From NCBI GenBank assembly GCA_963678705.1, contig OY783222.1:372001-436000 (forward strand): 64,000 nt of DNA, in the 5' to 3' direction. Position 1 is the stretch's first letter; the number at the start of each line of letters is the position of its first letter. The notes under the pieces are model-generated. The model was not told the DNA's origin. It searched no databases and worked only from the letters and a program-made list of their open reading frames with translations. The DNA is from Panorpa germanica. Taxonomy: Eukaryota; Arthropoda; Insecta; Mecoptera; Panorpidae. Both the position numbers and the translations under genes were made by a program. This document shows positions 965 to 61,447 of this stretch, piece by piece.

Positions 965-1410
965 TTTTTGTTTAATTGGCTTAGTGGTTTGGAACTTCGC
1001 TAACTAATATAGACGTCGCGTTTCCAACCATATATTAGAATGGTTTGAATCTTTGCTTAATTTTTTTGCCAAAAACTTTTGTTTAAAAATTGGCTAGTGG
1101 TTTGGAACTTCGCTAACTAATATATACGTGTTTCCAACCAAACATTCGGAATGGTTTGAATCTTTGCTTAATTTTTGCCAAAAACCTTTTGTCTAAAATT
1201 GGTAGTGGTTTGGAACATCGCTAACTAATATAGACGTGTTTCCAACCAAACATTCGCAGTGGTTTGAATCTTTGCTTAATTTTTGCTAAAAACTTTTGTT
1301 TAAAAATTGGATAGTAGTTTGGAACTTCGCTAAGTAATATAGACGTGTTTCCAACCAAACATTCGGGATGGTTTGAATCTTTGCTTAATAGTTTGAAAAT
1401 CAGCTTCCCG
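965..1410. repeat. Tandem array of roughly 110-bp monomers
   Basis: Four successive monomers start near 976, 1089, 1199 and 1307. Each contains TAGTGGTTTGGAACTTCGCT (or a close variant), then GTTTCCAACCAAACATTCG, then GGTTTGAATCTTTGCTTAAT. Spacing is about 108-115 bases with small indels. Degenerate relatives of the same phrases (GCTGGTTTGAGTCATCGCTA, TTGGCTGGAGTCCTCGCTA) continue to about 1580, so the array decays rightwards. It is non-coding and minisatellite-like. Confidence 0.75.
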
Positions 1411-4295
1411 CTATCGCCATCTAGGTCTAAATTAGGTAACTAAGCTGGTTTGAGTCATCGCTAACTGCTGCTGCCCCCTATGATCTGTTAGTTTATTTTT
1501 CGGTTTGAATCTTTGATATACACTATTGCCCTCTATGTTCCAATATTACAACTTCATTGGCTGGAGTCCTCGCTACTATGTTACTATTATCTATACCCCG
1601 CGAGTTTAATTCAGCGTTTAAAACTATGCAAAACTCTCTATTTTTTTCACAATATCCTACTAAAATATTCCTTTAAATATATAATTTCTTATAATCTTAT
1701 TTATAATCTAATTTTAAATATTTTCTATTAAATATATATTTATTTTTAAAAGAATTATATAGGTAAAAATTATTTTATTAACAAATATTTTCCTAATTAA
1801 CATATCAATTAGAATTAATTTTATTTTTCATGTCTCGTCCAAATGTTGCTATCCCAGATCCGTTTGTAGTGAAGTTACCAAAGGGTTTTCCTGAAACAAA
1901 TAATAATAATATATTAATAAATACTAAAATAATAAAAATACGTACGAAGCATAAGAACTGACCTTTTAATTCGTTTCACCATTAATACCTTCTGAGGAAT
2001 GCCTTCTGTAGACATCTTGACGGACGAATCATTATCATTTCAATCCGTCTTGTTTGACAACTCGTTTCAACAACTGCAGGATCAATGTTCCTTCAGTCAA
2101 GTTTAAACGAGCCAAGTCATAGCTGAAAGAGTTTCAATTAGTAAAAACGGTTACTCGCTTTTATTTTTATTGTTAAAGTAACAGAGACTACCCATTAGAC
2201 AAGTTCATGTATTATGTAATGTAATATTAAACACATGTAATTGTAAGTAGCGGGTACTCAAGATCTTAGACGTGCATTTACTTGTAAGACATTCTCACAT
2301 TACAATCGACTACTTGCGAAGGGTGTTGTTTCATTGTCACACCTTATTAGAGGAAGTTTCCACTTTAATATTTATCAACACACCACTATACCGTCGAAGT
2401 AAGTATTTAATTCGTTCGTATTCATAATGATTCATACGTATGTACATCAAAGCCTTATCATATCATGATAAAGTATACCAATACGAAACAACTAGTTTAC
2501 AGTAGTAGTCTGTTGCAATGAGAGAACCCTACTCGATTTTTATTCTGTAAAATATTGCCTTCCTTTTGCATTTTTTTTTGGAACAGTTTAAAAATTGATT
2601 GCAAAACTTGGACCATGAATGAGCGAAATAAATATAATTTATGAAAGAGTGTAAAGAGTTCAACACTATAATAATAATGGTATAATTAATAAATAAAATA
2701 ACAGTAATATTAATGGATTATTGTCTCTTAAGCATGCTGTTAACAAATGAGACGGTATGCTAAATGAGCTAAGTCGCAATATTCAACTAATTAACAAAAG
2801 CTATTCAACTCACATGAACAATTTTTCAACTACAGCATATGCAGAATCTTCCAACACCACTTGAGGGGGCTGCTGCTCTCTGGTTGTCAGGTTCCAGTTT
2901 CATTCTTCCAGCAAAAAAACATCACGTAGAGATTTCTATTATATTGTAGCTCCTGCAGCAACTGAAAATATTGATTTTATTCCATTCAGACCTGTCAATT
3001 ATAAGACTCTGATCAAATTGTATATTACACTACTAAAACATATTTATAAGGTAGAATTCTTAAAAGATTTGATTAGTTTTATCATGCATAAAAAAGTTTG
3101 GTTATGGAGACAAAGAATTTTATAAAAAGTACCTCTTTCAAACTATGTTATTTTCTTTAAAACCCAATAGCTTTCAGTTATAAATAATGAATTAGATATC
3201 ATTTTCACTACTATACTACTATATTTCAACTTTTTAACAAAATTAAACTTGGTGTCAACGTCAAAAATTGTCACGTTTAATGAGGTCAACGGGTCAGTAT
3301 AAAATTACACCGAGCTCACAATCTAAAGAATTTATTAATAAGTTCCAATGTTTCACACAGATGTCTACCGTAATAGCAAAGATTTCCACCTTATTTAAGA
3401 ATTTAAAATTAACTATTTCGTCTAACATAATTTTAAAATTTGCTTTCCTAATTGAAAATTACATATAATCTACAACTTATCTCATGATAAAGTATACAAA
3501 TTCAAAACAACTCATTTACATCCTCATCACAATCAGTATCAGCAGGCCCCTAAATACGGCCCCCAGTACTGACACTGCGAACATTTGCATGAAAGCATCG
3601 ATCAATATTGCAATAAAGTTAATGAAGTACATAATGTTGTGGGTTGAGTGTACCAGAATACAGTTATCATTTTGAACTGTTAACCTTTGCAGTTAGTTGG
3701 CTGTTGGCTGTTGATAACAAATACATGATGTTGATTATTCGCAATTCATTTGACTGTTTCGTTTCTACTTGAAGTGACCGTAGGATCTTTACATTCGTTA
3801 GACGTTTGCATCATTAACACTAGCCAACATTCTGCGCACCTGCACGGCGCAGTACCTGTTAATAGAATAGATAACCGTACAATCATTAACAGAGCAACGA
3901 CATATTTGATGGTGATTTCCGCTGCTTTTTTACAACATCACTTTTCAATCGGCTTTTGGATTTACCGACAGGAATACTTGCACCAAACTAATTACAATAG
4001 AAGTAAGTGCTTATCGCATTTTTATATTATGTTTCTGATGGTTTATTTTTAGATGACCTAGAATGAGAATGTACTTTGGCACATTAACGGAAAATTTCAT
4101 ACAATGATAATTTGTAGACGATACATTCGCAAAAGGGAGTCTCCCTCTTTCACTTCAACAGATTTATTTGTGTTTTGTTTCACATTAGTACACTTTATCG
4201 TGAAATGAAGTTTCTACTTTAATGTTTATCAATTCATCACCTTTCCTTTATAATATCAACACTTTATGCACTGTCTGGCGTATCAGTAAGCTCTC
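1411..4295. other. Gene-free stretch
   Basis: No recognisable gene. Two short open frames, 1830-1961 (43 codons before the stop) and 1999-2106 (35 codons), have less AT-biased codons than their surroundings. They match nothing I know and are in different frames. The rest is AT-rich with only short chance frames. Confidence 0.4.
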
Positions 4296-4337
4296 TTATG
4301 CATCTCTTTCACACTCTCTTGTGAAAGAGATGCATAA
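4296..4337. repeat. Perfect 18-bp-stem hairpin
   Basis: TTATGCATCTCTTTCACA (4296-4313) and its exact reverse complement (4320-4337) are separated by the six-base loop CTCTCT. It sits about 100 bases upstream of the first ATG of the small gene at 4439. It could be a miniature fold-back insertion or a transcribed stem-loop; nothing else indicates function. Confidence 0.7.
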
Positions 4338-4438
4338 AAAGAGATAGGAATTCATAGAAGGGAAGAGGGTAGGAATCGAACATGACCCTCATGGAGATAC
4401 AGAGTTTGTATCCTTCAAAGTAGTAATTTTCTTTCACC

Positions 4439-5418
4439 ATGAAAAACAACTTTTCAGAATTTTCCCCCAAGAGTATGGCGGCCATCCCGAACGGAGCATT
4501 TGCGGCGTGCAAGGCACGGCAGAATCGAGAGAGAGAATGTAAGTTAATAGAAATTACAGCGAAACAAAAAATTGACTCGCGAAATATAGATGGCGATACT
4601 ATAGAGCAGGTTAAATATTATCAAAAAATCATGTTTTTTTTATGTTTAAATCGTTTTATGTAAGTAACTATAAACGCGAATCAAAATCTAAAGCTGCAAT
4701 TAGTTAGATGAATAACGTATCTATATTTTAAGCTTTCTTCCACTGACTTTTAATGAGTTGGAACCGCAAAAATAAATTTTGAAAATTAATATATTATTGC
4801 TATATTTTCTAGTTCAATTCCAATTTTTATATGACTGGGATATTATCGAATACTTTATATAATTTTAAGTCTTAAGCGTAAGCTTGTGAACCCTTAGAAA
4901 TGTTACCAGTCATATAAAAATTGGAATTTAATTGGAAAACATAGCAATATTCATTTTCAAAACTTATTTTTGTGATTCCAACTCATTCTTTCACACAACT
5001 CATCACAACGCATACTGTTATTGGGTCCTCGCACTATGTGATGTTGTGAAATAAATATTTTACAGCCCCTGAATTAACCCCTGTCAAGTACAACAGCAAA
5101 CTGATGGACAGCATTTGGGGAATGTACAACCGTTATTCGCCGTACAATTTCAAGAAGAACAACCCAGCTGCAGCGGGCCTATTTGAAGCAGGATATCAAC
5201 TGTAAGTTAATTGAGTAAACTACCCTGATAAACATTAATGTAGAAACTTTTCTGAAATATATTTTTGTTCTAGACCAGTTGATATTCCTGCAGCCATGGA
5301 ACAGAAATCCATGGATATTGGCGGTGCTGCGTCCGGTTCCGGCCAGAAGACACAACAACAATTGCAGCAGCAACCGCAAACCCCCTGGTGGGAGTTCTGG
5401 CAATCACAGACGCAATAA
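4439..5418 (+). CDS. Unrecognised small protein, three exons
   Basis: Three exons join in phase: 4439-4538 (donor GTAAGT), 5066-5201 (acceptor TTTTACAG, donor GTAAGT) and 5274-5418 (acceptor TTGTTCTAG, stop TAA). The product is about 126 residues from the ATG at 4439 (context CACCATGA), or 114 from an in-frame ATG at 4475. I do not recognise the family. The middle exon is rich in aromatic and polar residues (motifs SIWGMYNRYSPYNFKK and AAAGLFEAGYQLP). The last exon has a glutamine-rich stretch and ends WWEFWQSQTQ. There is no signal peptide or clear membrane segment. A polyadenylation signal AATAAA lies at 5576-5581. Intron 1 holds a dispersed repeat and a hairpin MITE. The phase agreement and splice sites support a real gene; exon 1 is the least certain part. 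Confidence 0.6.
4570..4700 (+). repeat. Dispersed repeat fragment, copy 1
   Basis: A stretch beginning near AATATAGATGGCGATACTAT and running through CTATAAACGCGAATCAAAAT matches, in inverted orientation, about 11350-11485 with few differences. It lies in intron 1 of the small gene and carries no reading frame of note, so it is probably a fragment of a transposable element. Confidence 0.65.
4755..4984. mobile_element. Hairpin MITE in an intron
   Basis: The ends GAGTTGGAACCGCAAAAATA (from 4755) and its near complement (to 4984) extend into inverted arms of about 80 bases around a core of about 70 bases. Each arm also contains CAATTTTTATATGACTGG-like sequence. The element is about 230 bp and non-coding, consistent with a fold-back MITE. 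The target-site duplication is unclear. Confidence 0.65.
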
Positions 5419-6228
5419 CTGATTGCCTATAAAATAATCACAATGTGGGGCACAAAATAGTAACCTACTGTTTCTTCTTATATTCAAATATAAATAATGA
5501 TTGTATAATACATATAATATATTGTCAGCTATTGCTTTTACATTTGAAATGATATTGTTTTTATTATTATTAACAAATAAAACTTTTTATATGATTAACA
5601 AGATTTATATAATTAACAATTGGATAGATATGCAATAATAAATAATATAACATTGCTTAAATTGTGTTTAGATCATAACAATAAAATTAATTCATTTTTA
5701 ATATGGTACATAATGATTTAAAATATTTATATTCGAATCGCGAGCCAAGGGGTGGTTTAGGTTTAGTTGATCAATTGTGTAGATATTTATTTATTATAAG
5801 CTTAAAGTAAATGTAACATAATCGATAATTAGTGAGAAATATCCATTTCATCAGAATTTTGAACGTAAAATTATACCACTCACTCATGATGGCTGGGACA
5901 AACTTTTATTCAATCAATAAAAAGTTGATCAACTAAACATATCTTTATTTAAACCAGACAAAACGCAAATAAAATATTGTCAGAAGGGAAAACTTTTTAA
6001 ACAAATAGTTTTTAATAAATAGTATACTTTGTGTTTTTTAAAATATTTACAAGAAAAAAGTCAATATTATTTATTACTCAGCCTTATTGTGTTCAAAGTT
6101 TCGTTGTTGTTTTCGTAAAATGTAAGGGGTAGAAGAGGGAGGAGGGGGGGGGGCAAAATTTGGTAGGTGAGGAATGCATTTGAAGATTTCTTTTCAAGTG
6201 GACTCCTTGACTTAACAAAAATAAATGT

Positions 6229-42039: not shown

Positions 42040-42803
42040 TAAGGCGCTCAACACATGGGGCGACTGGTTGCCAAACTTAGCCCCGAATCTGTCCGAACCG
42101 AATGAGAATGGAACTGTGTTGTTAGTGAGAGAAAGAACGTGTATACGAGTGAGAGAAAACTTAATGCACGAATGAAACTAAATTGGTATTCGATCCGTGT
42201 TCCGTGACTATAGAACGATAGCATAATAGGGGATTTTATTATGTCGTATTTGATTGTATGTCTTCTTCTTCTTCAGTGGCTCGACAGCCCTGGGTGGGCC
42301 CTGGCCTTCTCAAGATTTTTTTCCGAATGATTTAATTACTTGAGATTTCGTAACAAGATTTTTTTCACGGGGTGGAGTTGTTAACACCACGCCCAACCCC
42401 AACCTGGAGGACCAGTCCCCTGATATAATCCCCAGGGGCAGGGTGCCCGGCTATACCCCCAGGCACTGGGTAGACATTGGGACTATTCTTTCACACCCGG
42501 TCACCACTCGGGAAATTTGATTGTATGTATGTATTTAAATACTTTTCAATAGTATTCGTAAATATCTCTGTCGATGATGTTATCATCAAAACCATGCAAC
42601 CACATGAAACCAAGGATGCACTGCGGTCGAGAAATTGACTCGCGGCAAACGTACTCAAAACCAGTTTGAAATTAGTTTAGTTACGTTCGTGCCGTGTGTT
42701 TTATTTCATTCGTATACACGTTCGTTCTCTCACTAACAACACAATTCCAATCACATTCGGGGCTAAGGTTTGCAACCAGTCGCGTCGAGTGCAGAGGGCC
42801 TAA
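42040..42803. mobile_element. TIR DNA element with nested insertion
   Basis: The left end (TAAGGCGCTC..., then GGCGACTGGTTGC, AACTGTGTTGTTAGTGAGAG and ACGTGTATACGA) is repeated in inverted form at the right end, which finishes in AGGGCCTAA. Arms are about 130 bases with substitutions. The same arms occur at 44097-44465. The element has no transposase frame, so it is non-autonomous. A 254-bp retroposon interrupts it at 42261. Confidence 0.75.
42261..42514 (-). mobile_element. Nested 5'-truncated retroposon with GAA tail
   Basis: A GC-richer insert flanked on both sides by the 13-base direct repeat ATTTGATTGTATG (42248-42260 and 42515-42527). Read on the minus strand it ends with GAGCCACTGAAGAAGAAGAA, a simple-repeat 3' tail of the kind seen in some non-LTR retrotransposons. 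It contains no open frame of size, as expected for a truncated copy. The LINE family is not identified. Confidence 0.7.
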
Positions 42804-44096
42804 CAGTCAAATACTATTAGAGACAGATTTTCTTTTTTTTTGGTCTTACATAAAAGTCAATTGTATCCAGTTATCATATTTTTTACGTAATGTTACGTAA
42901 AACAAGTGCGATACAAGGGTATTATAAAAAGATTCTTCAAGTGTTACGTCACTATATTTCTGGTACTTCCATGACATCATTATTACCATCTTCCTGATAT
43001 TGCCATAAATAGATGCGGTCATTTATGACCCAACACCGGACATAAAATTACCATTTCTTTAACAAAAATGTTAATAGAGTATTGTTCAGCAAAGTTATTT
43101 TGTAAAACTACCATTAAAAGGCATGTGATCACTGATCGCACCGAGTTATTATATCTCATTGAAACCTTCAATTCAGGCGTTCATATAATAGGCAATCTGT
43201 AATTACTTGTATCATCATAAACTTCATGCTTTGCGAGACCTTTGACCTTACATCTTTGTGGTCTATAGTTAAACTGAGCAAGTTTACCTTTTAAAGGACA
43301 AAATAATATGATAATATTTAACGTCGCCCTCAACACGATACATGAGATCTAGATCAATCACTGATTGATCCAAGTCTTCAACAATGTGTGACCTACTTAC
43401 AGTCGCTGATGAAGACGACGCGGCGGTGACGAAGCAATTTAGAAATTTCAAGTCGAATCAAAGCCATTGTCAATTAATTTAACATACAATGCTCTGTGAT
43501 GGACCTATGTTAGCTGGAAGCTTTGCAATCGTTACATACTTCTTCTCCTTCTTTCAAATTAATCTCTCTCCCTTCTTTTTCCAACTCGTATCTCATTGTT
43601 TATTTCATGAAAATAATTAGCTCTGAAAAGTCAAGGATAATTATTTCATTTATTATTTGATTACAAATATTTAATAATTGTTTTTTAAATTCATCATTCT
43701 CTTTATAGAACACCTTGTATCCGTACATTTTTAGGTAGAAATTTAGAATTAAGATCACATGAGATTAAAGCCTAACTTTCAATTATTTTTAGTCCACATT
43801 AATTTAAAACCACAATCGCTTTGACAGGTTTATGTCTGCAGGTTCATCTACAGCAGCTACTTCTTAGTAATCTGTGGTTTTTGTGGCCCTCCCAGAATAT
43901 GTACATCACATCCGAAGGTGATTGTCCCTGAATTGTTGACTCGTTAGTTACGACACACATTTGCGGTTTCGATCCTATTTTAAATCCGCGTCCAGAATAT
44001 CGCAATTCCCATTCCCCGTCTTACTTACAATTAATGACACTTCACTTGTTATCGCACGTTTCTTTTCTTTTGTAGATATTTTTCTGCAAGCACTAT
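42804..44096. other. Gene-free spacer between two TIR elements
   Basis: No gene or clear repeat seen. Confidence 0.35.
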
Positions 44097-44465
44097 TAGG
44101 ACGTCCGCACATGGGTCGATTGGTTGCAAACTCATGCACTGAATCTGCCCGAACCGAATGAGAATGCAACTGTGTTGTTAGTGAGAGAACACACGGCACG
44201 AATTAAAGAAAATTGATTTTAAACTAGTTTTGAGCTACTGTGTTTCTATGCTGCAGAGCATGTTTGCTTGCTTTGATGGTGACATCATGAGCAAAGATGT
44301 GCACAAATACTATTCAAAAGTATTTAGATACGTACATACATACAAATACGACACAATAAAATACCCTATTATACTCTGTTATTGTTAAAAATTCTATAGA
44401 GTCACAAAACACGGCTCGTTTTTCGGCTAGTTTGCAATCAGTCGACTCTTGTGCGGAGGACCTAA
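44097..44465. mobile_element. TIR DNA element, shorter family member
   Basis: Begins TTAGGACGTCCGCACATGGG and ends CTTGTGCGGAGGACCTAA, with internal matches to the element at 42040-42803 (CGAACCGAATGAGAATG, TGTGTTGTTAGTGAGAGAAC, CACGGCACGAAT, AAGTATTTAGATACGTACAT). About 370 bp, non-coding. Confidence 0.7.
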
Positions 44466-45196
44466 GAGAACAAAAAGGTCTTGATTTCTGTGGTAGGGAT
44501 TAAAGTACAGATAATTTATATAAATTAGAACATTCATTAGCTGGATTAATTACTGAAATTGAGAGTGGCAGATTAAAATTAACAAAACGTGAACCTTGAA
44601 CAATTTAAGTGCATGAACCTGCTCCTCTCAGTACCTGGAACAACAGGTTCCTGCTCTCATTACAAACGCGATTTCATCGAGAAACCTAATAAAGTATTTT
44701 TATCAGAACACTAAAATGCTTTTAAGAGGAGCTATGATTAATGTGAATAATGTCCACTGGATCTGCAAGTGCAGTAGATTGAATCATACTTATTATTTCA
44801 CCTTGCAAAGGTTTCGCTGTAGATACGCAATGCCGACCAATTTATCACGTTGAATTTACATGTCAAATAACTTTATGATAAGAAGCCGCTCTTGGCTTGG
44901 AACATTCTTTAGCACAGATTTATTAACATTTTTAAATCATTAATAAGAGATTATCCTTTGAAGGATTTTAATATACGAATATCTTCATGTTTTCATGAAT
45001 AAGTTTGTATCAGTAATAGTTTTGGTTTGAGTAGATTCTGAGAAACATTTCAACCTTCTTACAGATTATAAAATATTAATAAATCCCTTTTTAAGGTTTA
45101 AAGGATTAGCGCTAATGAGCTTCTACTATTTTGACAGTTATCATGATGTCAAAACTATAATGCTGAGGTAGTACGTTTTAAAATAATTGTATCGTG

Positions 45197-45935
45197 ATAG
45201 ACCAGGGTAGATAAATTTAGAAACATAAAAAAATTAAAGTAGAATGAAACCTATTGGAAATGGAAGGGAATACTACTAAAATGAAAGGAAAAATAAATTA
45301 CAGTCGATCTGAGGTTGGGAAGAGGTAGGGGGTGAGGTTTTAAGGGTGAAAATCGGTAAATCTCGATTTCCGGCAAAACTACAAGTCCTATCGAAAAAAG
45401 TTAATCGCAAAGTTGTAGATAATAAAAAGATCTACAACTTTTGTATCTACACTTTTTCTCCATAACCTCAAAATTCATGTAGAAAATCCAAAAAACCACA
45501 TTTTTGATTTTTTATTTTTATCTTTTACAAAAAAATTTTTTTTTCATGATATTTGGTGAAAACTTACCTCTTTATGTCCCAAACACACTGGAATTTTGAA
45601 GATTTAAAATATTAATTTTTTCACCCTATTTTGACTCGATATCGAAAAAATAACCCTAGTTTTCAATCGAAAATTCTCACGTCAAAATATCTGATTTTTC
45701 AAAAAAGTCGGTGGGCTTTTTGTTCGTTGAAATCTCTATTTTCTGATGGTGTAAAAAAAAATATACATTACAATGGAAAAAATTTTCAGAAAATGCAAAA
45801 AAACGAAAAATACTAAAATTCGAAATTTTTTTTTTAATCTTTATGTACAATTTTGAGGTATTCATTAAAATTTTTACTTTAATTACTCGAAAAACGTTAG
45901 GGACCATGTTAGATTAATAAACAAAAAATTGCAAG
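45197..45935 (+). repeat. Left long terminal inverted repeat
   Basis: Pairs with 48016-48759. It contains AAAATCGGTAAATCTCGATT, TACAAGTCCTATCGAAAAAA and GTTAGGGACCATGTTAGATT. AT-rich and without plausible coding function. Confidence 0.85.
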
Positions 45936-46048
45936 TCGAAATGTACTACTATAATTAACAACTAAATAAGTTAATAAAGTTAATATTTAATATGACATCT
46001 ACAAAATTTTGAGAAAATTGTCGAATTTTCTTTAAATTATATGCGTAG

Positions 46049-47720
46049 ATGCCTATTTATTGCTATTTTAAAATTATACCTTTATACCTGAGTGACCTGA
46101 GTGAAGTCTTGTCTCTAAAAACGGTCCAATCTTCTGTTAAAGTAAACGGAGATATTATAGCAATTGATCCGTTATTGATATTTCAAAGAATATCTCTAAT
46201 GATCGACAGTAAAAAAGATATGGAAACTTATTTACAATACAAGCTTGCACCTTTTCCATTATCTCTTTTTACCGAAAATGGCTTCAGAAAAAACGTTAAA
46301 TCTCAGCTCTACGAATTATTTGTGAGTACGAATAGATCAACGCATTTTGACGGCATTGTGCATGTCGTCGACGGTGGATTTTTACTACACAAAGTAATTT
46401 GGCAGAAAACTGAAACGTTGGAAGAGATCATGAATATATATTTACGCTATGTAGAAAAACATTACGCAGCAAACAGCTGTATAGTTTTTGATGGGTACCA
46501 TGAAATTGAAAAATCAATTACTGTGTCAACAGTACCAGCAGTTCATTCAACTAAAAAAGGAGAACGTAGTCGTAGAAAGACGTCAGACAATATTCCAGAG
46601 TTGAATTATCAAAACCATACAAAAATATCATTTTTGCAAGAAAAATTTTTATTTAATGAGAAAAACAAAGACAAAATAATAAAGTCGTTAATGCAAGTAT
46701 TACAGTCAAAAGGATTTTCCTGTTAACAAGCTAAAGAAGATGCTGATGCTGACATTATTAAGACCTCGATAGAAATTGCCAAAGATACTAATAAAACTGT
46801 CATTGTTGTAGGACAAGATATTGATCTTTTGGTCCTTTTGAATCAATTAAATTCTAATAATCATAAAATTTATTTTCTCAAGCCCGGTTCTGGAAATATA
46901 AAAGATCTTTTTTTCACGTCTAATAGTTTCAAGTGTGAATCCGTCAAAAAACATCGTTGCATTTCTGCATTGTTTTTCTGGTTGCGACACAACATCTGGA
47001 TTTGCCGGAAAAGGAAAGAAAACTATAGTAAATTCATTATTAGGCAATCAAAATTTGTCAAATTTGGCTAATATTTTTTTTAAAAAAGATGTAAACAAAG
47101 AAGATATAAAAAAAAATGGATTGAAATTAATTAAATAAATTTATAAATGTAAAAAGGATAATATATCACTGAATCAATTAAGATTTCAAAAATTTCAATT
47201 GGCAAAAATTAAATCATCTTTCATATTGGCAAATCTCCCACCCACAGAAGGTGCAGCAGAACAACATTGTTACAGGGCATATTATCAGCTTCAAACGTGG
47301 CTGGGTAATGAATTGACAGCAACAGATTGGGGCTGGAAGCAACATCAACATGGAATTATGCCCAAATTTACAGAAATTGAATTAATTCCGGAAAAATTGC
47401 TGAAAACTATTTGCTGCAGCTGTGAAACTGGATGTAATAGTTTAAAATGTGGCTGCCGAAAACATGGTTTAAAATGCACAAATTTATGCTCAAATTGTGA
47501 TGGTTCTGAACAATGCGCCAATGTGGAGAAAAAAATCTACGAGGAAGTTAATGATTCAGATGAAATTGCGGATGAAGAACCAATGCAGACCGAAAATAAT
47601 GTTAGAGACGAAGACGGTGATGGTCTTGAAGATGTCGAAGATCTACTAGAATCAGAAAGGCCTGTCGAATCTAACGATCAAGAAATACCATCAAAAAGAC
47701 AGAAACTGATGAATAAGTGA
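46049..47720 (+). pseudogene. Decayed FEN1/XPG-like nuclease with C-terminal CXC motif
   Basis: An interrupted reading frame on the plus strand. Pieces: 46049-46726 ending in a TAA; the same frame continues to about 46950; then a shift to the frame of 46935-47138 with another in-frame TAA; then 47142-47720. In order it shows VVDGGFLLHKV, then CIVFDGYHE, the acidic block AKEDADADII, VVGQDIDLLVLL and FSGCDTTSGFAGKGKK. These match the N region, VFDG, the acid-rich I region and the helix-hairpin GCDxT region of flap endonuclease/XPG nucleases. Downstream come NLPPTEGAAEQHCYRAYYQ and a tesmin/TSO1-like cysteine motif (CCSCETGCNSLKCGCRKHG and CTNLC), then an acidic tail. Two stops and one frameshift mean this copy is inactive; the N-terminus also seems missing. 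It is presumably the mobility gene of the surrounding element. Confidence 0.75.
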
Positions 47721-48015
47721 TTCGAATTGAATACTATGTTTTGATAAATACAAAGATTAATGCTTTTAGAAATAATAGAATGTATAGTGTAATCATTAAA
47801 AAAAATCTCTACTCAATAGTACGATTTACGTGAATATTTCTATCTAATGAGATTTTCTAATACATAAATGTAATGAAAATTTAATAAATCAACTTTTATT
47901 ACTGAAAAAAATAGCAGTAGTCACATTTTTTTAATAAAATCCCCTTTTAAATCGTATTTTTAATATTTACGACAACTATGTTTTTTGCGATATTTATGTT
48001 TAATTGGTTTGTAAT

Positions 48016-48759
48016 TTTTTTGTTTATTAATCTAACATGGAACCTAACGTTTTTCGAGTAATTAAAGTAAAAATTTTAATGAATACCTCAAAATTGTACA
48101 TAAAGATTAAAAAAAAAATTTCGAATTTTAGTATTTTTCGTTTTTTTGCATTTTCTGAAAAATTTTTCCATTGTAATGTATATTTTTTTTTACACCATCA
48201 GAAAATAGAGATTTCAACGAACAAAAAGCCCACCGACTTTTTTGAAAAATCAGATATTTTGACGTGAGAATTTTCGATTGAAAATTAGGGTTTTTTTTTC
48301 GATATCGAGTCAAAATAGGGTGAAAAAATTAATATTTTAAATCTTCAAAATTCCAGTGTGTTTGGGACATAAAGAGGTAAGTTTTCACCAAATATCATGA
48401 AAAAAAAAATTTTTTTGTAAAAGATATAAATAAAAAATCAAAAATGTGGTTTTTTGAATTTTTTACATGAATTTTGAGGTTATGGAGTAAAAGTGTAGAT
48501 ACAAAAGTTGTAGATCTTTTTATTATCTACAACTTTGCCATTTAACTTTTTTCGATAGGACTTGTAGTCTTGCCGGAAATCGAGATTTACCGATTTTTAC
48601 CCTTAAAACCTCACCCCCAACCCCTTCCCAACCTCAGATCGACTGTAATTTATTTTTCCTTTCATTTTAGTAGTATTCCCTTCCATTTCCAATAGGTTTC
48701 ATTCTACTTTAATTTTTTTATATTTTTAATTATTTTTGACGGCTTCTACCCTGGTCTAT
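48016..48759 (-). repeat. Right long terminal inverted repeat
   Basis: Inverted partner of 45197-45935. It ends TTCTACCCTGGTCTAT followed by GAGTCC. The outermost 40 bases carry extra sequence (GACGGC) relative to the left arm. Confidence 0.85.
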
Positions 48760-50001
48760 GAGTCCACAGGAGCTCTAAATTTATTGCGTATTGCGTAAAT
48801 TTATTTATCTCTTAAATCAAATAGACAAATAAATAAATATTGATTCAACAAATTAAAAACACTTCAAATCTAAATCTAAATGTACTTGACATTAATTGCT
48901 GTTGCAATAAATAAAATATTAATAAAGCGAATAATGAACAAAACAAATAAAATATTGTCCTATGGAATCATCTTGATTCGTATCTTGAATGATCTCAACA
49001 TAACTATGTGGTTCTCTCCATAAAAACTATATTTGATAACCATTAGAATTAGAATTGTTATCTTAAAATCAGTAATGAGTAACCTCATTCTGATCAACAT
49101 TTTATAACCTAACAAAAATATGTAATAGATGCTTGTGTAAACAAACAAGTTAGAACTGATTTAAACGATAAATGGTACAGATGATTCTAATAAACATAAT
49201 CTGTCCGATCCCAGGGACAGAACTACACTTAATGTCACTAATCGTAACAATTTAATAGCTTCTGTATTCCCGCGTCAATATTCTTGCCCAATAATTTCAT
49301 ATTAACGAAATAAATCAATTCGAAATTTTCATACATTGACAATTTAAAATAAAATATGTCCCGATTATTGTACAGTTTTATGTGAAATGAAAATCAATTT
49401 ATATTTTTATTATGCAGATCAATATCATTTAGAAATATCAAGAATTTTGATTTGAATATGATGGCGTAATGATAGTTTATTGTGATTTGAATTTATTTAT
49501 AGGTAGAAGTACTGATCTGGAGATCAAAATTGAAATTAAATAGCGGCGAGGTTCAGTAAATTATATTTTCAGTAATTATATTATTGTAGTACTGGTGACA
49601 AATTACAAGTGTAAGTGATTTGTTTGACATTAAAATATTTTAGCAATTTATGCAAATACTTAACAGTTAATATTATGCACAAGTGAAATACCAATCCTAG
49701 TCGTAACCACAAGCCTAGTCGCAGCAAAGTGAATTCATTACAAGAACAAGATGCCAGGCATCTAATCTTAAAATCTCTCTAATTATTACGCAACGTGTCA
49801 TCTCCTGTCTCTTCCCTCATTGTTCATCGTTTATAAATAAATAAACAATAGAATGTTAGTTCGTATCAGGGGTGATGAGGGAGGGAGGGGGCGAGTCAGA
49901 ACCATAATGGGAGTGCTTTTCTTGTCGCGTAACTGTGTTTCATGTTCGGTACACAACAGACATCAATGGCTCTGAATTAAACACATTGATATTACCCAAT
50001 G

Positions 50002-56739: not shown

Positions 56740-56881
56740 TCAATTCAGTGGTAATCTACACAATTTTGTGATGGGTCTGTTGTAGATCTTATCACCGATT
56801 TTTATTTCCGCCACTCTCACTTTTCCATCTTTACCAAAAAAGACCTTTGTAATTCTGGCCATTGGCCAATTTAATGGGGGT
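56740..56881 (-). pseudogene. Out-of-frame pol C-terminal fragment
   Basis: Downstream of the deletion junction near 56880, another minus-strand frame reads LNWPMARITKVFFGKDGKVR and ends with IYNRPITKLCRLPLN before a TGA at 56742-56740. This matches the extreme C-terminal (DUF5641-like) region of BEL/Pao polyproteins. It shows that the middle of the integrase region was deleted and the frame shifted. Confidence 0.75.
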
Positions 56882-59800
56882 GAGTTTAGATTCTTTACAA
56901 TAACTTATAACATTATTTCTATGAGACTTATTAGTCTGTAAATTATACAACTCTTTTAATTCATTAGCAGCACCCTTGAATGTTTTAGCATTGTCACAAT
57001 AAATTTTAGTAGGCATGCCTCGTCTAGAAATAAAACGATTGAGACATGCCAAGAATGTTTCAGTTCTTAAATCAGAAACCACTTCCATGTGTATGGCCTT
57101 TGTAGAAAAGCAAACAAACAATGAAATGTAACCTTTTGTAATCAATGGTTTACGTATGCGAGCTATCTTTATGTTAAAAGGTCCACAAAAATCTACACCT
57201 ACATGCTGAAATGGTCTTGTAGCTGTAACTCTGTCAGCTGGCAAAGAACCCATCAATTGTTTAGCAGATTCAGCCTTCAATCGTGAACATATAACACATT
57301 TGTATAGTACCTTTTTGACCTCCCGTATGCCATTTATAATCCAGAACTTTTGAGACAAGGAGCTGAGTACTAATCTAGCACCAGCATGGAGCAAACGTAA
57401 GTGCTCATTTTTGATTATGATAGAAGTGATATTGTTGTCCTTTGGCAGTATGACTGGGTGCATTTTATCTTTTGCAATGCCTGCATTTTGCAATCTGCCA
57501 CCAACACGAATTAAACCAGTGCTGTCTATGAAAGGGTGGAGATTACCTATACCGGTCTTGATAATGATACCACCTAAGAGACATTTTATTTCTTTAAAAA
57601 ATATTTGCCTTTGAACTGAGCGAATGATAATTAATAAAGAATTATGAAGTTCTTGTGGAGATAAATGTCCACTTGAACTGTGTACTGTCTTTCTACAATT
57701 ATTAAAGAATCTGTACACATAAGCTAATACACGCTGTAGTTTATTGATATTGGAGAATTTTTTAAACAAGTCTAGCATTAAAGGTGCTTGTTCGACTTCA
57801 ATGTTACAAACATTACAGCTTTTATCTTCATCGTCTGATGGAAGTACTGTATTTAAATCAAAATAATGATCATGTTTAAAATGAGAATTGGATAGATACT
57901 GGGGACCGTTCCACCAAAGATTTTGATTTTTTAAGTGTTGTGGTTCTATACCACGAGAAATTATATCAGCTGGGTTATCAGCTGATTTTACATAGTACCA
58001 AGAGAGTTTATCTGTGAGCTCTGTTATTTTCTTTACTCTGTTATTAACATAGATATTGGTTTTTAATTTGTCCGCTTGAATCCAAGCAAGGACTATTTTG
58101 GAATCACAATAAAGGAAAAGTCTATGTTCCAATCTAGTTTTGAGTAAATTACTAACTCTAACCGCAAGTTGTGCCAACAAAACTGCACTATTTAGCTCTA
58201 GTTGGGGTATTGTAAGTACCTTACCTAGTGGAGCCACACGAGACTTGGCACAAATTAATTTTGTTTTTACGTTGTCATTTGCTGTAATGGTTCTTAAATA
58301 TAGGCAGCACCCGTACGCCTTCATAGATGCGTCTGCATAGCCTATTAACTCTGCAGTGACAAAATTTTCCTTCTTTATAAGTCGATCTATTGAAATGCTG
58401 TCTGCTATCTTTAGACCATTAAGGAACTTTTCCCACATCTGTAATTGCTTGTCAGGCAGCGGTGCGTCCCAATCTATTTTCAAAAACCAAAGCTCTTGCA
58501 TGATTAACTTGGCAACTACAATTATAGGGCCAATCAATCCTAACGGGTCAAATAAAGTCCCAATAAAACTAAGCACTTTTCTTTTAGTATTCAAATTGTT
58601 ACTATTCGTGTTAGGACATTTAAAAGTAAATGTATCCAAAATAACATTGTATTTTAGACCTAATGTTTTAATAATGGCTGATTTATTCAAATCTAATTCA
58701 TTGATATATTTTTTATCACTAGAGATGTCGTCGAGCACTGGGGGATGATTGGAAGACCATTTGTGTAATTTAAAATTACCTAATTGTAACAAACCAATTA
58801 ATTGAGACTTTAATTCAGATAACTCTTCCACGTCATCGCACCCAACTATGACATCATCAACATACGTATTATGGCACATTGCTCTCGCTGCGAGAGGATA
58901 TTTATGTTTGTAGCGATGGGCAAGTTCTATGAGACATCGTGTGGCCAAAAAGGTAGAAGATTTGAGTCCATATGTTACAGTTTTTAATTGCAAACAACTG
59001 ATGGGCTTACCTGGATCATCTCTCCATAAGATATTTTGTAAGACATTGTAAGTGTCATTTGTGAGAATACAGCGGAACATTTTTTCTATGTCACAGACAA
59101 TTGTGTACACATAAGTTCTAAACAGTAGGAGAATATCGAAGAGCTCGCCTTGAACCACAGGACCATTCAGCATAACATCGTTGAGAGAAATCTTATTTTT
59201 AGAACGCATGCTCCCATCAAAGACCACACGCAATTTAGTAGTTTTGCTATCATCGTTTGTAACTGCATGATGCGCTAAAAAATAATTAGGAGTATTATAA
59301 ACATCATAAGAATTTATGTCTATTTCCCTGGCATGTCCCATCTCTATATACTGATCAATGAATTTTTTATACACCTTCAATAGTGAAGGATTTCGTTTAA
59401 ATCTGTTTTCTAACACACAGAATCTTTGCAGGGCGACTGAGAAAGAATCCCCCAATTCTAGTTCATTTACTGGGCTGACTAATGGCAAATCTACAGTAAA
59501 AGTATTATTTTCAAGTAGTACTGAATTTTTAAAAATATGTTCAGCCTTTAAATATTCCTCAGTAAACTTATCTGTCTTTTCTGGGACTTTCTCAGTCATC
59601 CAAAATTGCCCCATAACATTCTCAAGGGTTGTATGGTCAGAAATGGCAAAATTAGATACTATAATATTACTTGAATAATTATTTTGATTTTGAAACATTT
59701 TTGGCTCATTAATAACATTATAATTAAATTGATTATGCAGTTTACCTGCAACTACATATCCAAATGTAGTGTTCTGTAAAACTGAGCCATTATTTAATTT

Positions 59801-61447
59801 AATACAGCCACCTAATAGAATGGCAAAATATACATCCGCACCCAATAGCAATGATATTTTCGAGGGTACATTATACTGCTCATCAGCTAGCTTAATATTT
59901 TTGGGAAAAATAACTTTGGATGTGTCAATAAAAATTTGAGGCAAATGCGTAGTGATAGATTCAACTACATGACAATTCACTTTGTGATTAATATTTCTGT
60001 CGTAATTAGACTGTATGTTTATAATTGCTGAGTGATATAATTTTGTGGCTTTATTGCCTATACCAATTATTTTACTAGGATGAGTGTTTGTGCGTAAACG
60101 CAATTCTTTTAAGAGTTCAGCAGTCACTAATGATGCTTGACTACCGCTATCGAGCAATGCACGAACTAGAAACTCGCGACCAAAATTGTCAACAATTTTT
60201 ACCTTCATAGTAGGCAGCAATATGGTACCCCCCAAGCTATCATTGCTACAGCACATTACAACTGGAGATTCAGTTGTCTTGCCAGCCAGCGAACCAGCAT
60301 CTGTTTTATCACATAACAATTTGCTATGCATGCCTTTACATTTATGACATTTATAATTATTCTCAAGGGAGCACCTGCCACTATGGGCTTTTAAACATAG
60401 CGAACATAATTTATGTTCTTGAACAAATGAATTACGCGACTCTAAAGGAGCCATTTTAAATTTTGGACATCTAAAAATGGGATGGTCCATATTACAATAT
60501 CTACATGCTAAATTGTAGCGAGTAGTTACATTGGAAACTCTCGAGTACGAATACTCTTTATAATTTTTGTCATTTGACATACTTTTATATGGTGAGCTAT
60601 CCTCAAGTGCAATCGCACGTTTTTCTAAAAATGATATAAATTCTGCCATAGTAGGCAGTTTGTCTACATTTCTTTCCATATGGAAATTGCGACTAGTTAA
60701 TAAATCTAGCTTTCTACATAATATTGAGATTAGAATCATATCCCATTTGTCTACAGGCTCATCAAGATTTTTTAACGCTTGTAATTGCTGTTTTACTTGA
60801 CATAAAAAAGCCCTTATAGCCATTGCAGTACCCTTCTGCATGTTTGGAATATCAAGTAATATATTTATATGATTAGTAATTAATCGCGCCTTATTATCAT
60901 ACCGCGCTAACAATAAATCAAGAGCCTCTTTATATGAGCTGTTCACAAGCGGCAAATTTATAATTATCGAGAGAGCCTCGTCAAGGAGATACTTTCTTAA
61001 ATAAAAAAGTCTCTGTACATCGGACAGTGATGCATTATTGTGAACAACTGCTTGGAAGAGCTCATAAAAGGGCCTAAACCTGGTTATATCCTTGCCATCG
61101 AAGGTTGGAATTTCCACCGCTGGAAGCTTGGATGCCACTAAGCTAGGACAAGTAGGCCTATTAACTTCTTTTAACTTGGTGATGCTGGCATTTAACTTAG
61201 CTAAAATATTAAAGTATTTTTCTTCTACATCCTCGATGTCTTCATCATCCTGTTCATCAATTTCTAAAATACTGGATTGCGTGAGCTCGTACGTGTGATA
61301 GGTAGCCATCAACTTTTCTTTCTTCGCCTCCAGCAGCTCTACCGTACCGGATTCGAGGGCCCTTGCGTCGCTGACATAATTGTCCATTCTTGAAATCGAA
61401 CCTTTTGCAGTCGTCCGCGCCGTTTTAAGCCTCTTCAACCCCTCCAT
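56831..61447 (-). CDS. BEL/Pao gag-pol polyprotein, integrase-truncated
   Basis: A 1538-codon uninterrupted frame. Domains in order: gag-like DUF1759 region about 100-280; zinc knuckles about 310-400 (CRYCNMDHPIFRC, CSLCLKAHSGRC, CHKCKGMHSKLLC); aspartic protease with LLDSGSQASLV near residue 432; reverse transcriptase with YVDDVIVG near 862; RNase H/A17 part with GYADASMKAYGCCLYL; integrase zinc-binding H2C2 (HLRLLHAGARLVLS, CVICSRLKAE); integrase core with Asp in HVGVDFCGP (about 1418) and Asp in IYCDNAKTF (about 1483). The catalytic Glu segment is absent: after NNVISYCKESK the sequence jumps to the C-terminal region in another frame and stops. Protease, RT and RNase H look intact. The protein should make cDNA but not a working integrase. 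Confidence 0.92.
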   Translation of the reverse strand: MEGLKRLKTARTTAKGSISRMDNYVSDARALESGTVELLEAKKEKLMATYHTYELTQSSILEIDEQDDEDIEDVEEKYFNILAKLNASITKLKEVNRPTCPSLVASKLPAVEIPTFDGKDITRFRPFYELFQAVVHNNASLSDVQRLFYLRKYLLDEALSIIINLPLVNSSYKEALDLLLARYDNKARLITNHINILLDIPNMQKGTAMAIRAFLCQVKQQLQALKNLDEPVDKWDMILISILCRKLDLLTSRNFHMERNVDKLPTMAEFISFLEKRAIALEDSSPYKSMSNDKNYKEYSYSRVSNVTTRYNLACRYCNMDHPIFRCPKFKMAPLESRNSFVQEHKLCSLCLKAHSGRCSLENNYKCHKCKGMHSKLLCDKTDAGSLAGKTTESPVVMCCSNDSLGGTILLPTMKVKIVDNFGREFLVRALLDSGSQASLVTAELLKELRLRTNTHPSKIIGIGNKATKLYHSAIINIQSNYDRNINHKVNCHVVESITTHLPQIFIDTSKVIFPKNIKLADEQYNVPSKISLLLGADVYFAILLGGCIKLNNGSVLQNTTFGYVVAGKLHNQFNYNVINEPKMFQNQNNYSSNIIVSNFAISDHTTLENVMGQFWMTEKVPEKTDKFTEEYLKAEHIFKNSVLLENNTFTVDLPLVSPVNELELGDSFSVALQRFCVLENRFKRNPSLLKVYKKFIDQYIEMGHAREIDINSYDVYNTPNYFLAHHAVTNDDSKTTKLRVVFDGSMRSKNKISLNDVMLNGPVVQGELFDILLLFRTYVYTIVCDIEKMFRCILTNDTYNVLQNILWRDDPGKPISCLQLKTVTYGLKSSTFLATRCLIELAHRYKHKYPLAARAMCHNTYVDDVIVGCDDVEELSELKSQLIGLLQLGNFKLHKWSSNHPPVLDDISSDKKYINELDLNKSAIIKTLGLKYNVILDTFTFKCPNTNSNNLNTKRKVLSFIGTLFDPLGLIGPIIVVAKLIMQELWFLKIDWDAPLPDKQLQMWEKFLNGLKIADSISIDRLIKKENFVTAELIGYADASMKAYGCCLYLRTITANDNVKTKLICAKSRVAPLGKVLTIPQLELNSAVLLAQLAVRVSNLLKTRLEHRLFLYCDSKIVLAWIQADKLKTNIYVNNRVKKITELTDKLSWYYVKSADNPADIISRGIEPQHLKNQNLWWNGPQYLSNSHFKHDHYFDLNTVLPSDDEDKSCNVCNIEVEQAPLMLDLFKKFSNINKLQRVLAYVYRFFNNCRKTVHSSSGHLSPQELHNSLLIIIRSVQRQIFFKEIKCLLGGIIIKTGIGNLHPFIDSTGLIRVGGRLQNAGIAKDKMHPVILPKDNNITSIIIKNEHLRLLHAGARLVLSSLSQKFWIINGIREVKKVLYKCVICSRLKAESAKQLMGSLPADRVTATRPFQHVGVDFCGPFNIKIARIRKPLITKGYISLFVCFSTKAIHMEVVSDLRTETFLACLNRFISRRGMPTKIYCDNAKTFKGAANELKELYNLQTNKSHRNNVISYCKESKLTPIKLANGQNYKGLFW

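Follow-up and report, generated by a model that had tools for sequence, protein, structure and literature searches.

A transposable element with long terminal inverted repeats (TIRs) occupies positions 45198-48758 (3561 base pairs, bp) of a stretch of 64,000 nucleotides (nt) of the Panorpa germanica genome, and this whole stretch is referred to here as the window. The element is probably a copy of a young, high-copy and non-autonomous family that is related to the Academ superfamily (lineage AcademX), lacks a DDE transposase and would be moved in trans. Between the TIRs is found a decayed reading frame with the motifs of XPG/FEN1 nucleases, followed by a cysteine cluster that resembles the CXC modules. 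The family is present in the host genome in many copies, nearly all of those examined being flanked by 3 bp target-site duplications. No DDE part is detectable in the copies that were fetched or near the matches of the family, and a relative in the same genome displays a putative region of this kind upstream of the same XPG module.

Boundaries of the element and copies in the host genome

The element begins and ends with TAGACCAGGGTAG..CTACCCTGGTCTA and is flanked on both sides by TGA, which forms a 3 bp target-site duplication (45195-45197 on the left and 48759-48761 on the right, without strand). A preliminary description of the window had located the element correctly, but its limits, 45197-48759, were one base too wide at each side. 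The left TIR (45198-45928, plus strand) starts with TAGACCAGGGTAGATAAATTTA, and the right TIR (48016-48758, minus strand) ends with ..GACGGCTTCTACCCTGGTCTA. The nearly identical inverted arms of about 735 bases that had been described are confirmed: they measure 732 and 743 bp, and the left arm shows 96.1% identity with the reverse complement of the right arm over 744 aligned columns. Directly inside the 14-base end the right TIR is unlike the left one.

The host genome that was searched consists of 464 Mb in 249 contigs, and proteins encoded near the element appear insect-like by eye. The 14-base end, TAGACCAGGGTAGA, has 315 exact occurrences in this genome (155 + 160), against one for the reversed control; thus the ends of the element are not a product of chance. 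With an arm and its inner neighbour as query, 40 scored matches were obtained from 391 candidates, with identities of 96-100%. The first 225 residues of the frame gave 151 genome matches (286 candidates). Of the 150 matches listed, 128 at 116 distinct loci fall in the window family, counting fragments, with identities of 72-100%; the remaining 22 are diverged (34-39%). A search for relatives in viral contigs and phages found none.

Twenty further copies (L009-L028) were fetched and, together with the window copy, make up the 21 copies examined. In the aligned blocks of these 20, identity to the window element ranges from 94 to 99%, and for most blocks it is 97-99%. Exact 3 bp duplications are present in 18 of the 19 copies with both ends found, the window copy included, and the duplicated sequences are varied (TAA, TTA, CAA, CTA, AAT, TGT, ATA, AAA, ACA, TAT and TGA). 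Because L014 and L018 have common flanks, the independent duplications amount to 17 of 18. The genome copies, the exact ends and the duplications bear out the earlier view of a mobile element with long inverted arms.

The two loci with identical flanks differ in content: L014 (C7:22054403-22064402) has a single element, and L018 (C12:16573863-16583862) has a head-to-tail double copy (7368 bp). The sharing of flanks may represent a duplicated locus or two assembled haplotypes. In two of the 20 further copies, L019 and L028, the frame is uninterrupted from the ATG and has 556 and 553 amino acids (aa), respectively. Open frames of at least 540 aa, with no stop inside the match, are found in 5 of the 128 window-family matches. 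An internal deletion is common to six of the 20 copies (L011, L012, L013, L016, L022 and L026).

The ends listed were the first 100 of the 315 occurrences and the first 100 of the 153 of one end type. The first 100 of the 315 ends form 41 pairs within 15 kb, with 18 ends unpaired, and 40 of the pairs span 698-3563 bp. The shortest distance between paired ends, 698 bp among the ends listed, is as expected for any TIR family. Matches of 80-84% identity were considered as a possible older subfamily; the example fetched, L035, is a member of the same young family in which the 5′ part of the frame is swapped for arm sequence, and the subfamily was rejected.

Other mobile elements were seen within or near two copies. 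Nested in the L010 element is an insertion of about 2.2 kb, and its uninterrupted frame of 565 aa resembles, by eye, a Tigger/pogo DDE transposase. At L019 an uninterrupted frame of 1373 aa (1269-5390), which by eye is similar to a Copia polyprotein, is found near the element copy.

The XPG/FEN1-like protein and the cysteine cluster

The frame of the window copy lies on the plus strand between the arms and is decayed, with two stops and one frameshift. The motifs quoted in the preliminary description are all found in the window: VVDGGFLLHKV, VFDG, EDADAD, VVGQDIDLLVLL, FSGCDTTSGFAGKGKK, PPTEGAAEQHCYRAYYQ and the cysteine cluster. The first part of the XPG/FEN1-like frame (46049-46726, 225 aa) ends in an in-frame TAA at 46724-46726 and has homologous sequences in L019, L028, L033, L032 and L029; its candidate catalytic Asp codons are at 46370-46372 (VVDGG) and 46490-46492 (VFDG). 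The frame continues in the same phase at 46727-46950 with EDADAD (Asp codons 46739-46741 and 46745-46747) and GQDIDLLVLL (46817-46819 and 46823-46825), whose counterparts in L028 align by hhalign to the E..E and D..D of FEN1. The frameshift is placed near 46945-46960. The post-shift frame (46935-47138) has FSGCDTTSGFAGKGKK, with its Asp codon at 46986-46988 and a homologous residue that is aligned to FEN1, and ends in an in-frame TAA at 47136-47138. The C-terminal part (47139-47720), with homologous sequences in L033, L032 and L090-L092, consists of PPTEGAAEQHCYRAYYQ, a CXC-like cluster of nine cysteines at about 47412-47516, an acidic tail and the final stop.

The protein of the window family is 37-39% identical to those of two other lineages of the same genome. 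Seven aspartates, D105, D145, D228, D230, D254, D256 and D310 (L028 numbering), are invariant in a six-row alignment (A2); L091, which is outside of A2, has V at the first of the seven acidic positions. A larger profile of seven relatives was compared with 49 archaeal FEN1 proteins (from 53 loci, four of which had no frame longer than 300 aa). The hhalign score is 25.8, as compared with 60 column shuffles that averaged 17.3 and reached at most 24.6. With the smaller profile, A2, the score is 25.1, and that of the reversed profile is 15.0. The larger profile aligns D228/D230, D254/D256 and D310 with the E..E, D..D and D of FEN1. The FEN1 positions matched by these last five acids are catalytic sites.

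Thus the order of acidic motifs, which had led to the XPG/FEN1 assignment, is conserved across lineages; however, neither the Pfam XPG family nor the TCR/CXC family is matched at E≤1 by the proteins scanned. Searches with Pfam, NCBIfam and PDB sequences likewise gave no match above cut-off for XPG, CXC or DDE. Below threshold there is a match to the NCBIfam PIN family TIGR00305 (E=3.9e-4, in L033 only), and Pfam shows PIN-type matches to 5_3_exonuc_N (best E=0.028) and NYN (best E=0.034), each in two of six members; plainly unrelated Pfam families score nearly as well (E 0.065-0.09).

The nine cysteines have the spacing CxC-x3-C-x4-CxC-x6-C-x3-C-x2-C-x5-C, which is close to that of the CXC module of tesmin/TSO1 proteins. 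The CXC module that had been proposed earlier is supported by its spacing, but not by Pfam TCR, since no family is matched at E≤1 by the C-terminal part.

Ratios of nonsynonymous to synonymous substitution rates (dN/dS) were obtained between lineages. The ratio is 0.11 for L033 vs L090 and 0.18-0.21 for L028 vs L032 and vs L033, where dS is nearly saturated; L033 vs L032 is saturated, and L029 vs L032 gives 1.3. The low ratios show that the protein has been under long-term purifying selection between lineages. As judged from the sequences, the XPG and CXC reading of the protein is plausible, although statistically weak.

The XPG frames of L028, L033 and L090 all start near the same codon. A common intron acceptor was considered as the cause and tentatively rejected, as the junctions are out of exact register. 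On contig C3 (13378955-13522046) six XPG-CXC matches lie on one strand within about 143 kb; their frames are 405-407 aa long, and they possibly form a tandem cluster.

Diverged relatives and the search for a transposase

Five loci of diverged matches were fetched. At L031 (C8:3143500-3153499) an element of about 6.3 kb is found between inverted repeats at 535-811 and 6854-6545 (reverse complement). It displays a zinc-finger-like frame of 304 aa (1071-1982, by eye) and a frame of 638 aa (3537-5450), in which a putative DDE part runs into an XPG part that is homologous to the window frame and is later cut by a stop. The first 330 residues of this frame have no similarity to the window frame and are presumably an Academ DDE transposase. 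The XPG region of the window family is about 35-37% identical to those of L031 and L032. The left end of L031, TAGACCGG.., has TAGACC in common with the window family, and no common end sequence was seen beyond this motif.

The other loci have parts of this anatomy. L032 has kept the zinc-finger and XPG-CXC parts, and the putative DDE part is absent. In both L029 and L030 an XPG part is flanked by inverted repeats, and at most a short remnant of the putative DDE part is left. L033 is a separate lineage with an XPG-CXC frame of 517 aa and arms of about 470 bp that are 95.8% identical; it represents a second DDE-less lineage with the same anatomy as the window family. L029, L030 and L033 end in TAGCCC.. 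and have the 3 bp duplications TTA, TAA and TTA, respectively (by eye). The reverse of the window element is seen at L034 (C215:1-4500), where a DDE-like frame in pieces is situated between inverted repeats (87% over 122 bp) and no XPG part can be detected within the 4.5 kb obtained. The L034 element is itself broken; it has 22 matches, of which 21 show an identity of only 73-90% and are mostly partial.

When the putative DDE part of L031 is used as a query, 44 genome matches (51 candidates) are obtained, down to 26% identity. None of the 128 window-family XPG matches (116 loci) is within 10 kb of any of these 44, the nearest being at 69.7 kb. Among the 22 diverged XPG matches, 14 have a putative DDE match within 10 kb, many of the 14 being remnants of about 30 residues. 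Similarly, this putative DDE part has no match (E≤1e-3) in any of the 20 copies that were fetched, and the zinc-finger part is also undetected in these 20. A pair of ends 8843 bp apart was considered as a full-length, DDE-bearing copy and rejected: a nested non-LTR-like (LTR, long terminal repeat) retroelement is seen inside it by eye, and neither the zinc-finger nor the DDE query from L031 finds a match in the 5 kb fetched.

The nuclease of the AcademX lineage, whose primary paper is reportedly Kojima 2020, is presumably of the XPG type; no paper with both Academ and XPG as whole words was found in the literature searched. AcademX elements are described as nuclease-encoding, with target-site duplications of 3 or 4 bp, and AcademH elements as helicase-encoding, with duplications of 9 or 10 bp (PMC10045372). 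Academ is counted among the DDD/E superfamilies (PMC9587614). The anatomy of L031 (zinc-finger-like, putative DDE and XPG parts) and the 3 bp duplications fit Academ and its AcademX lineage. Where the preliminary description had named no established superfamily, Academ (AcademX) is the most likely assignment.

Selection within the family and inversion of the coding core

Substitutions in the coding part were counted in 20 sequences, several of them partial; L018 was left out because its flanks are those of L014. Changes common to at least two copies comprise 21 nonsynonymous and 6 synonymous changes and 4 stops, and singletons comprise 71 nonsynonymous and 19 synonymous changes and 4 stops. 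From these counts, purifying selection on the frame is invisible within the recent burst, and broken frames appear to have been passed on as well. Such a lack of constraint is expected of copies whose movement takes place in trans.

Directly inside the ends the two sides of the element have different bases (TAGATAATTTTA vs TAGAAGCCGTCA), and in 6 of 19 copies the orientation of the coding core is reversed relative to these asymmetric bases. At least four changes of orientation are needed on a tree of the coding part, which has modest support (10 of 18 inner branches open). The tree has 21 rows; L017 was not counted, and L011 was scored from the left end alone. The flipping is most simply explained by recombination or conversion between the long arms. 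The unusual features are the flipping core and the retention of the nuclease frame in two lineages, the window family and L033.

Proposed origin of the family and alternative explanations

The ancestor of the family would have had a zinc finger, a DDE transposase, an XPG/FEN1-like nuclease and a C-terminal CXC-like module between TIRs. The founder of the family would have kept both ends with their long arms (about 735 bp) and the region that codes for XPG-CXC, and would have lost the zinc-finger/DDE part. Its copies would have been excised and inserted in trans, with 3 bp duplications, by a DDE transposase encoded elsewhere in the genome. The XPG-CXC protein could still be made from copies with an uninterrupted frame, and may assist by trimming or resolving intermediates.

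Several points weigh against this origin and should be noted. Among the ends listed (the first 100 of 315, and the first 100 of the 153 of one end type), no element was found that combines TAGACCAGGGTAG ends with a DDE part and could be the proposed source of transposase, though the L031 query might miss a DDE part of great divergence. At L031 the DDE label is putative, as no match in Pfam, NCBIfam or PDB supports it, and a clean target duplication is not visible by eye. Within the family, 3 of the 21 copies have no scored duplication: L011 and L017, with no right end found, and L015, where the flanks do not match. The XPG-CXC frames that are open for at least 540 aa and the existence of a second DDE-less lineage, L033, would not be required by a pure deletion accident. 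Finally, the HHalign probability for the larger profile against FEN1 is 2.3% (P 0.021), and 1 of 20 shuffles beat the smaller profile (26.0 vs 25.1). With shuffles close to or above the score and a probability this low, the statistical support for the XPG fold is marginal, including the profile match to FEN1, and the register of the motifs is the stronger argument.

The XPG-CXC-only family and DDE-only or DDE-bearing elements may instead complement each other, with XPG-CXC copies kept since the nuclease is needed and limiting. This would agree with the excess of XPG matches (151 of 286 candidates and 86 of 655, partly the same places) over DDE matches (44 of 51), with the DDE-like pieces between inverted repeats at L034, which have no detectable XPG part in the 4.5 kb, and with L032, which retains a zinc finger and XPG-CXC and has no DDE part. 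However, L034 and most of its matches are degraded as described, the ends of L031 and the window family are alike only in TAGACC, the pattern of changes in the burst is neutral, and the dN/dS for L029 vs L032 is 1.3. Complementation of this kind is considered unlikely.

A bolder proposal is that some Academ-related lineages are permanently free of DDE and survive as elements with long arms that encode no protein other than an XPG-CXC nuclease. This nuclease would recognize the ends or the arms when extruded, and both movement and the repeated inversion of the core would depend on it as the limiting, or even the sole, enzyme encoded by the element. We regard this as rather improbable. If it is true that DDE-less lineages are self-sufficient, they would represent a new mode of DNA transposon movement.

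Slightly less probable again is movement by the nuclease and without DDE, in which the XPG-CXC protein would cut the branch points of the TIRs or extruded arms. The preliminary description had favoured such a nuclease in place of a DDE transposase. The long arms suit extrusion, the window family and L033 have solely XPG-CXC between their arms, the fetched copies and the surroundings of the listed matches have no DDE part, and the long-term conservation of the protein is strong. On the other side, the replacement of a DDE transposase by the nuclease is not supported: at L031 the same XPG module is joined to an upstream putative DDE region within one TIR element. Fixed 3 bp target duplications are typical of DDE strand transfer, and the recent copies show no selection on the frame. 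The origin by loss of the zinc-finger/DDE part, with movement in trans, is thus preferred. Capture of a host XPG gene fragment by a DDE transposon of another superfamily is barely credible, since homology to L031, L032 and L033 already largely refutes it: the ends in common with L029, L030, L031 and L033 are only TAG[AC]CC and a 3 bp duplication (with no clean one at L031), but over its whole length the XPG-CXC part has homologous counterparts (37-39%) in other TIR elements of the genome, and is therefore element-borne and not a recent capture from the host.

Other features of the window

Interleaved inverted repeats (80-88%) are found at 42042-44375 of the window, over its most G+C-rich 2-kb step, and may be a further decayed TIR element. 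On the minus strand, at 56831-61447, is a frame of 1538 aa that by eye resembles a BEL/Pao retroelement polyprotein.

Comparison with known systems

We know of no test of the role of the XPG nuclease in Academ elements. The window family is recent, has hundreds of ends and has lost the transposase but kept the nuclease part, so that the two activities are naturally separated in it. It therefore permits a direct test of a requirement for the nuclease in excision, in end processing or in neither.

With the FEN1/XPG nucleases, which have a PIN-like fold, the window-family protein shares the ordered acids D, D, D..D, D..D and D; unlike them, it has no significant Pfam match and has extra N-terminal and PPT..QH..YYQ regions. 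The C-terminal cluster is like the CXC/TCR module of tesmin/TSO1 in its nine cysteines and their similar spacing, and differs in the lack of a Pfam TCR match at E≤1.

KolobokP and other Kolobok lineages are reported to have a DDE enzyme and an accessory nuclease, and multimers are described (PMC9587614). The window family is similar in being a DNA transposon with a nuclease, and a multimer was seen here once, in the double copy L018. However, the Kolobok lineages have other nuclease folds and retain the DDE enzyme, and the long repeats of KolobokP are direct, not inverted.

The closest likeness is to Academ and AcademX. The window family has a nuclease coding region, TIRs and 3 bp target duplications, and its XPG region is homologous to that of L031, which has an upstream putative DDE part. 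It differs from them in that no DDE or zinc-finger part is detected, in its arms of about 735 bp and in its size, 3.56 kb as compared with about 5.6-6.3 kb; curated Academ consensus elements with a DDE open reading frame have a mean of 5565 bp in a bivalve study (PMC10294476). The window family is therefore best filed as a DDE-less relative or derivative of Academ/AcademX, and not as an autonomous member.

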